Shown: piece by piece, positions 46,137 through 48,476 of the stretch
How positions within the stretch are numbered: position 1 is the first letter of the stretch
How the letters are laid out: each line of letters starts with the position of its first letter
Origin: Gemmatimonadota bacterium
Lineage (GTDB): Bacteria; Gemmatimonadota; Gemmatimonadetes; Palauibacterales; Palauibacteraceae
DNA: 60,340 nt
Assembly: GCA_020351855.1 (NCBI GenBank)
Contig: CP070670.1
Location: forward strand, 492,327 to 552,666
Reading direction: 5' to 3'
Translations under genes and position numbers: made by a program
The notes under the pieces: model-generated
Databases searched by the model: none
What the model saw: only the letters and a program-made list of their open reading frames with translations
Told to the model about the DNA's origin: nothing

Positions 46137-46271
46137 TTCGTCGGACCGCGCCCCGGTGGGCCCGGTTGGCCCGGTTTGGCGGGTTTGGCATAGGGGCGCG
46201 TGCCGAGGTGGCCGCGCCTTTGGCTTTGCGGATTTCAGCGCCGCGGTACGCGCGGCGCGTCAAGGATGCCC

Positions 46272-46679
46272 ATGTTCACGGTTCTGGTTCTCCTCATCAG
46301 CCTCATCGCGCTGCTCCTCATTCTCATCATCCTGATGCAAGCCGGGAAGGGAGGCGGCCTGGCGGCGTCCTTCGGGGGCGCCTCCTCATCCACCGAATCG
46401 TTCATCGGCGGTCGGCAGGCGGCAACGCTCCTCACGAGACTCACGTGGATCGGCGGAGGCGCCTTCCTTTTCCTCGCGCTCGTGCTCAGCGTGCTGTCGT
46501 CCCGATCCTCCGATACGCCCGAGTCGATCCTGCGAGGGCAGTTCGGGCCGACCGGGGCGCCGCCGGAGACGCCCGCCTCGGTCCTGCAGAGCGAGGCCGG
46601 TGAGGGGGAGCAACCGCCGGACGAGGGCGCGACGGCGCCCGACGGTTCAAGCGAGGGCGGAGAGGACTCGGGAAGCTAA
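46272..46679 (+). CDS. secG: Preprotein translocase subunit SecG
   Basis: 135 residues from ATG 46272 (AAGG six bases upstream; the ATG at 46266 is too close to that site). Two TM helices (about 2-21 and 52-72) flank the SecG loop LMQAGKGGGLAASFGG and the TLLTRLTWIGG segment. The C-terminal 55 residues are an acidic, Pro/Glu/Ser-rich tail not found in short SecGs. Accessory subunit of the SecYEG channel. Confidence 0.94.
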   Translation: MFTVLVLLISLIALLLILIILMQAGKGGGLAASFGGASSSTESFIGGRQAATLLTRLTWIGGGAFLFLALVLSVLSSRSSDTPESILRGQFGPTGAPPETPASVLQSEAGEGEQPPDEGATAPDGSSEGGEDSGS

Positions 46680-46730: not shown

Positions 46731-47330
46731 TCAGCCTGACTCGGCCGGCCCAGGGTCCGGTCGGAAAGGGGCCTCGGGCGGAAGATCCAGGTAGTCCAGG
46801 TAGTGCCCTCGCTCGGTCTGCTCCTCCAGCCAGCGCGGGAAGCCCGAATCGACAAGCGCTCCGGAGCTTCTGGCCTCACGCGCGGCACGGACCGCCAACA
46901 TGTTGGCGTACTCGTTCTTGGCATGACCGGCATGGCCTCGTACCCAGCGCCATTCCACTCGATGCCGGCTCGCCTCGTCCACCAGACGCTGCCAGAGGTC
47001 GAGGTTTTCGATCGCGCCGCCTTTCCTTCTCCAGCCGCGTGCCACCCAGCCGTGGACCCACTCCTTCATCCCGCTCACCAGGTAGCGGCTGTCCGTCGTC
47101 AGCACGACATCGCAGCTCCGGCGTAGCCAGGCCAAGCCGAGTATGGCTGACGTCAGCGCCATCCGGTTATTGGTGGTCGCCGCGTGGAACTCGAAGTAGT
47201 CCTTGCGGCGCCAGCCCGCGCGGGCATGGAACTGCTCGATCAGTCCGGCAGCCGCACCGGGGTTGCCGCCCTCGAACTGGTTGCCGAGGCACGATTCATC
47301 CGCGTAGATGTAAACCAGCCGATCGCTCAT
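46731..47330 (-). CDS. RNase HI family protein lacking two catalytic acids
   Basis: 199 residues. RNase H fold motifs: YIYADESCLGNQ (Asp11), ATTNNRMALTSAI, LTTDSRYLVSGMKEWVHGW (Asp80), RGHAGHAKNEYANMLA. Compared with E. coli RNase HI, Asp10 and Asp70 equivalents are present, but the Glu48 position is Ala58 and the Asp134 position is Asn143; His124 is kept as His133. The N-terminal glycine loop is lengthened (GNQFEGGNPG). A related group with the same NNRMA and NEYAN pattern may exist in this phylum, which would suggest a specialised function. Divergent from carA. Confidence 0.9.
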   Translation of the reverse strand: MSDRLVYIYADESCLGNQFEGGNPGAAAGLIEQFHARAGWRRKDYFEFHAATTNNRMALTSAILGLAWLRRSCDVVLTTDSRYLVSGMKEWVHGWVARGWRRKGGAIENLDLWQRLVDEASRHRVEWRWVRGHAGHAKNEYANMLAVRAAREARSSGALVDSGFPRWLEEQTERGHYLDYLDLPPEAPFRPDPGPAESG

Positions 47331-47354
47331 CGCCTACAAGGAACGGAGGGTCAC

Positions 47355-48476
47355 ATCGGATCGCAAGGCACGGACGCTTACCTGCTCCTCGAGGATGGCG
47401 CTCGCTTCGACGGCCGGCTCCTCACCGGCACGGCAGAGGGCATTGGGGAGGCGGTCTTTACCACGAACCATACCGGTTATCAAGAGGTCCTGACCGATCC
47501 CTCCTTCGCCGGACAAATCGTCGTGATGACCGCTCCGATGATAGGCAACTACGGGACCCAGCCGGAGGACGACCAGTCCCGTCGGACGTGGGTGGCCGGC
47601 TTCGTTTTGCGCCGCCTTTCCGATGCGGCTCCGCGTGGGCGCGAGGCTCTGCCAGCCTACTTGCAGCGTCACCAGGTTCCGACCCTGATCGGTGTCGACA
47701 CGCGGGCCATCACGCGACACATCCGAGAGCTGGGGGCCATGCGTGCCGGGCTCTTCATGGCCACGACGGAAGAGCCGGAGGCCATGCAGCGGGTGCAGGG
47801 CGAGGCGCCGATGGACGGCCGGGAGCTGGCGACGAAGGTGTCGACTCCGACGCCGTACTCGCTCGAACAGGCCGATCCCGCGGCAGGCCGTGTCGTCTGC
47901 CTCGACTATGGGGTCAAGCGCCGATCCCTGGAACTGATCCGCGACAACGGCTTTTCCGTGATCGTCATGCCGGCCGTAGCGCCCGTCGAGGCCATTCTGT
48001 CGACCGATCCGCGCGGCATCTTCGTGTCCAACGGTCCCGGAGATCCGGCAGCCGTACCCGGGGCTGCCGAGAAGATACGCGTCCTTTCCGATGCCGGCTT
48101 GCCGGTGTTCGGTATCTGCCTGGGACTCCAACTCATCGTTCGCGCCTTCGGCGGATCGACGTACAAGCTTCCCTACGGCCACCGCGGTGGGAACCACCCG
48201 GTGAAGAACCTGGAGACAGGGGTCGTCGAGATCACCTCTCAGAACCACGGCTTTGCCGTTCGAGGCACGGGCGCGGGGGTCGAGGGGGCGATCCAGCTGC
48301 GCGTGACCCACGTGAATCTGAACGACGGCACGATCGAGGGCGTGGCGCACGAATCGCGTCCAGTATTCGCCGTGCAGTATCACCCGGAGTCGGCTCCGGG
48401 CCCGCACGATAGCCGCTATCTGTTTGATCGCTTCGTACAGGCGATGCACACAACTGCAAGTACGGCAACCGGTTGA
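47355..48476 (+). CDS. carA: Carbamoyl-phosphate synthase small subunit, apparent ATC start
   Basis: About 373 residues. N-terminal domain DAYLLLEDGARFDG, FTTNHTGYQEVLTDPS, TPMIGNYG-like segment, then the class I glutaminase with SNGPGDP, FGICLGLQLI (nucleophile Cys) and QYHPESAPGPHDS (His/Glu). It supplies ammonia for carbamoyl phosphate in arginine and pyrimidine synthesis; carB is not in the window. The family start (Met a few residues before AYLLLEDG) corresponds to ATC at 47355, five bases after GGAGG. Upstream ATGs lie antisense within the RNase H gene and are not credible. Confidence 0.9.
   Translation: MGSQGTDAYLLLEDGARFDGRLLTGTAEGIGEAVFTTNHTGYQEVLTDPSFAGQIVVMTAPMIGNYGTQPEDDQSRRTWVAGFVLRRLSDAAPRGREALPAYLQRHQVPTLIGVDTRAITRHIRELGAMRAGLFMATTEEPEAMQRVQGEAPMDGRELATKVSTPTPYSLEQADPAAGRVVCLDYGVKRRSLELIRDNGFSVIVMPAVAPVEAILSTDPRGIFVSNGPGDPAAVPGAAEKIRVLSDAGLPVFGICLGLQLIVRAFGGSTYKLPYGHRGGNHPVKNLETGVVEITSQNHGFAVRGTGAGVEGAIQLRVTHVNLNDGTIEGVAHESRPVFAVQYHPESAPGPHDSRYLFDRFVQAMHTTASTATG

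Follow-up and report, generated by a model that had tools for sequence, protein, structure and literature searches.

An RNase HI of the LC9 kind in Gemmatimonadota, with its second catalytic glutamate most likely relocated beside the first aspartate

In E. coli RNase HI, Asp10 contacts both metals of the site, joined at metal A by Asp134 and the Gly11 carbonyl and at metal B by Glu48 (PMC8900815). Position 11 is therefore next to the metals. The other described system that concerns us is LC9-RNase H1, a metagenome-derived enzyme (Nguyen et al., FEBS Lett 2013, 587:1418) whose structure (PDB 4ibn) is entered as ‘a type 1 RNase H with the type 2 active-site motif’. Neither DEDN nor LC9 is mentioned in the main text of PMC9719913. 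Typical RNases HI (DEDD) have a Glu on helix A (Glu48) and an Asp as fourth carboxylate (Asp134); those of the LC9 (DEDN) kind have a Glu after the first catalytic Asp, no helix-A Glu and an Asn at the fourth carboxylate, the last a trait that is not universal in the clade. Here we describe a gene in a 60,340-nucleotide stretch of a Gemmatimonadota genome (contig CP070670.1, hereafter the window). Its protein belongs to this known RNase HI variant with a solved structure, and is ordinary for its bacterial group.

The open reading frame is intact and starts with an ATG at position 47330; its coordinates (Table 1) had been given exactly in an earlier note on this DNA, which was made from the sequence alone. 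The protein scored 106.8 bits against Pfam PF00075 (RNase_H), above the gathering cut-off of 25.8. Against the NCBIfam RNase HI equivalog NF001236 it scored 145.3 bits, which is below the curated cut-off of 160 and counts against the LC9-type assignment. The gene lies between secG (46200–46679, plus strand) and carA, also on the plus strand. The longest carA reading frame (47184–48476, plus strand) overlaps the RNase H gene on the opposite strand, but its CPSase domain starts only at residue 67; thus, the true carA start is probably later than 47184.

Table 1. Position of the RNase H gene and its parts in the window.
Feature	Position	Strand	Basis
rnhA-like gene, LC9-type RNase HI	46731..47330	-	199 aa; ORF, PF00075 and 4ibn match
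Five-residue insertion QFEGG, loop after beta-1	47265..47279	-	kind common to relatives and LC9
C-terminal tail, residues 156-199, beyond E. coli-like core	46734..46865	-	aligned with LC9 tail
Asp11 codon (first catalytic Asp, E. coli Asp10)	47298..47300	-	alignment
Glu12 codon (E. coli Gly11), proposed relocated second carboxylate	47295..47297	-	alignment; LC9 has same residue
Ala58 codon (E. coli Glu48 position)	47157..47159	-	alignment
Asp80 codon (E. coli Asp70)	47091..47093	-	alignment
His133 codon (E. coli His124)	46932..46934	-	alignment
Asn143 codon (E. coli Asp134 position)	46902..46904	-	alignment

Aligned with E. coli RNase HI, the window protein has D, E, A, D, H and N at the positions of Asp10, Gly11, Glu48, Asp70, His124 and Asp134. 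The earlier note had rightly seen Ala in place of Glu48 and Asn in place of Asp134, as well as the retention of two Asp (Asp11 and Asp80) and the active-site His. It missed a third change, however: Glu12 stands directly after Asp11, where E. coli has Gly (DGSCLGN). This overlooked substitution matters most of the three. Sequencing errors were ruled out as the source of Ala58 and Asn143 because the relatives carry the same residues. The ‘long glycine insertion’ after Asp11, which had been called atypical, is actually about five residues ahead of a normal NPG; E. coli itself has many glycines at this place (NPGPGGYG), and both relatives and LC9 (NGREGENPGG) carry a similar insertion. Apart from the three substitutions, the window protein differs from E. 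coli RnhA in this small loop insertion and in a longer C-terminus, whereas the fold, the two catalytic Asp, the active-site His and the PF00075 match are shared.

Searches by sequence and by structure returned the same nearest solved relative. PDB 4ibn was the best sequence match among solved structures (E = 1.2e-55, 191.8 bits, query residues 4–193, with the query begun at residue 2), followed by 1wsg, a mutant of the E. coli enzyme, at 127.3 bits. An AlphaFold2 model of the window protein, built from an alignment of 21 sequences, reached a pLDDT of 91.0 and a pTM of 0.89. With this model as query, Foldseek placed 4ibn at the top (E = 1.4e-22; next 1.2e-16), as did VIA-align (Z = 25.8, rmsd 2.8 over 197 residues; next Z = 20.6). 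LC9-RNase H1 shares with the window protein the RNase HI fold over these 197 aligned residues, the same six residues D-E-A-D-H-N, the insertion and a similar tail after the core. In contrast, identity between the two is only ~54%, a second point against the LC9-type assignment.

According to the earlier note, the protein may bind hybrids and not cleave them normally, which would make it a catalytically dead or crippled enzyme. Of the four classical carboxylates, two are indeed replaced, and an E. coli active-site mutant, E48A/D134N with Mn2+ according to the title of 1wsg, has exactly these two changes. However, that mutant reads TDGSCLGN and is without the extra Glu, which in the window protein adjoins Asp11 while the remainder of the site is kept. 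In addition, the homologue with the same six residues, 4ibn, is entered in the PDB as a type 1 RNase H, which leaves binding without cleavage unsupported, and no other PF00075 gene was found in the genome. We dropped the dead-enzyme reading on the strength of Glu12 and the LC9 match, and regard it as very improbable.

We hold with high confidence that the window gene instead encodes a functional type 1 RNase H of the LC9 (DEDN) kind with a housekeeping role. The second catalytic Glu was most likely not lost but relocated from helix A to the position adjoining the first Asp, an arrangement seen in RNase HII. With Glu as residue 11, the acid starts close to the metals and could replace Glu48, and an Asn at the 134 position would keep an oxygen ligand without the charge; LC9 supports both steps. 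The metal site would then be formed by Asp11, Glu12, Asp80 and Asn143, with His133 in its usual place. We infer the activity and this metal geometry from the comparison; the protein is probably an active LC9-type RNase HI. The earlier suggestion of a different metal arrangement thus probably stands in part: the second acid would come from elsewhere in the chain, and the fourth ligand would be Asn. That note had also named the placement of another acid in the site as grounds for refuting its own reading, and Glu12 appears to be such an acid, judging from the alignment together with the titles of the 4ibn entry and paper.

The genome was checked for other RNases H, as the earlier note had proposed. 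We rejected the idea that another type 1 RNase H does the actual work, as PF00075 matched one gene and PF13456 none in an assembly given as 90% complete. One RNase HII gene was found. RNase HII resembles the window protein in its tandem Asp-Glu, which lies within GVDEVGYG in this genome’s RNase HII and whose Asp we take to be the first catalytic one. It belongs to a different Pfam family, however: the PF01351 model matched this one other gene and not the window gene (E ≤ 0.001). With carboxylates arranged as in RNase HII, the enzyme might be active but differ in specificity or metal preference, through RNase HII-like junction cutting or Mn2+ dependence. This would be a sub-case overlapping the LC9-type reading, and the type 2 motif in the 4ibn title and the Mn2+ in the 1wsg title both speak for it. 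We nevertheless consider it unlikely, given the separate RNase HII gene. The 2013 study of LC9 also reportedly found RNase H1-like rather than H2-like behaviour. Its mutational analysis is reported to have assigned the motif’s second acid to the position adjoining the first Asp, the arrangement of RNase H2.

Gene order speaks for the housekeeping part of the preferred reading. Homologues of eight genes (CarA, SecG, TpiA, Pgk, GapA, SppA, HU and an aminotransferase) were sought at 21 loci, L003–L023. CarA and SecG homologues stood on either side of the RNase H gene at 14 of the 21 loci (L003–L016, 14/14), and others of the remaining six lay at a greater distance, within the limits of the contigs. 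At L017, CarA adjoined the gene and TpiA and Pgk were further off, while SecG was not found; CarA and HU were kept at L018 and L019. The location is a stable, housekeeping one in near relatives. Against the housekeeping reading, none of the eight neighbours was seen at L020–L023.

A scan of genome contigs with the window protein gave 21 loci, 20 of them titled Gemmatimonadota or groups within it (Palauibacter, Benthicola, Longimicrobiales); the remaining one, L023, had the classical active-site residues. PF00075 was matched in 286 of 298 genomes of the phylum. The other 12 (such as G220, G084 and G142) had no match at E ≤ 0.001, and may lack a type 1 RNase H or have assembly gaps. A degenerate DNA pattern for DESCLGN was present in 256/298 genomes, with no match to the reversed control pattern in the rows shown, and this spread of the motif is further evidence against a dead protein. 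In a partial look at genomes that have an RNase H but lack the exact pattern, with identical rows merged, 18 loci (L103, L123, L128, L149–L152, L154–L164) also read as DE-type. The pattern was found in 0/6 genomes of the other class (f11). In the four of these whose RNase H frame was read (L055, L058, L059, L060), the enzyme is of another type, with DG(S/G)SRGNPGPAG.

Several genomes departed from this picture. Three genomes of family f6 (G264, G226 and G164; loci L024, L025 and L026) lack a match to the DE pattern and encode another RNase HI, which reads DGSSHPN and retains Glu48; here the DE-type gene was probably replaced. Two DE-pattern matches each were seen in G111, G141 and G253, with two PF00075 matches in each of the first two and one in G253. 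The two pattern matches of G141 are at the same position of two contigs and differ in their codons.

A mobile or phage origin was rejected: the best place of every matching plasmid or phage record was below 60% identity (746/746 plasmid and 1035/1035 phage records), a comparison made by identity alone. A scan of viral contigs with two short patterns only gave 39 stretches with a pattern, of which 0 were confirmed by tblastn. Outside the phylum, the DE pattern was found in 0/39 genomes of the phylum to which the L023 genome belongs, where the reversed control pattern matched once (G318).

Comparison with orthologues, another check named in the earlier note, covered 165 loci. A query-like RNase H row was obtained from 155 (151 distinct) and none from 10, which include the RNase HII locus and remote RNases H. 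With the query and E. coli added there were 153 rows, the query and L001 being the same gene. The pattern Glu12/Ala58/Asn143 proved common to relatives: 106 rows read DEADHN, 37 DEADHD, one DEADHH (L096) and four DGEDHD (including E. coli), and five were incomplete or misaligned (L022, L024, L054, L061, L092). At L022:3987–4670 the N-terminal part is misaligned at the first catalytic Asp and the rest aligns, possibly through a frame break or misassembly. The single His at the fourth site, in a genome (G203) of the same family as that of the window, parallels in nature the E. coli D134H mutant (1kvb, by title).

For the tree, the five incomplete rows and L001 were dropped and LC9 was added, giving 148 rows: 144 Glu-Ala (fourth site 106 Asn, 37 Asp and 1 His) and four Gly-Glu. 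Glu at E. coli position 11 occurred with Ala at position 48 in 144/144 rows and Gly with Glu in 4/4, with one change between the two states on the tree. This single event weakens the case for relocation, since the perfect association amounts to one observation. The 144 rows came from the DE pattern (28), query similarity (19), PF00075 score (26), hand choice from the PF00075 and DE-pattern match lists (59) and one further search (10), plus the window protein and LC9. The 28 rows obtained through the DE pattern itself are a further point against relocation, although for these only the Glu, and not the Ala, was given by selection.

The fourth site behaved differently, with at least 17 Asp/Asn changes on the tree against 29–37 (mean 33.1) when labels were shuffled 100 times; an earlier tree without LC9 and under a simpler model gave 16. 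Both trees were built without the three columns at issue. These were quick trees and 56 of 145 inner branches were weakly supported in the second, so the change count is approximate. In a search for a residue that compensates for the Asn, no alignment column closely tracked D/N; E. coli position 133 is Val in 16/37 D-type against 3/106 N-type rows, counts that ignore kinship. We suggest tentatively, as something short of probable, that a second carboxylate beside the first Asp makes the fourth optional, and that the repeated Asp/Asn alternation in the window’s class, with His once, forms a natural series separating the metal-A from the metal-B ligand role. By a literature search of open-access papers, the repeated alternation may be the only new point here. 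LC9 itself paired on the tree with L041, from family f4 of the window’s class (SH-aLRT 99, 84% identity over 190 columns), and therefore metagenomic LC9 probably came from this class.

The case illustrates that an acid apparently lost from a catalytic site may have moved, and that two alignment columns are insufficient grounds for calling an enzyme dead. Our data indicate that the LC9 motif, whose name goes back to an enzyme from a metagenome, is the common form of RNase HI in the window’s class of Gemmatimonadota, and they thereby assign LC9 a likely place in the taxonomy. Alternation of Asp and Asn at the fourth site could offer a means of probing the role of that residue.
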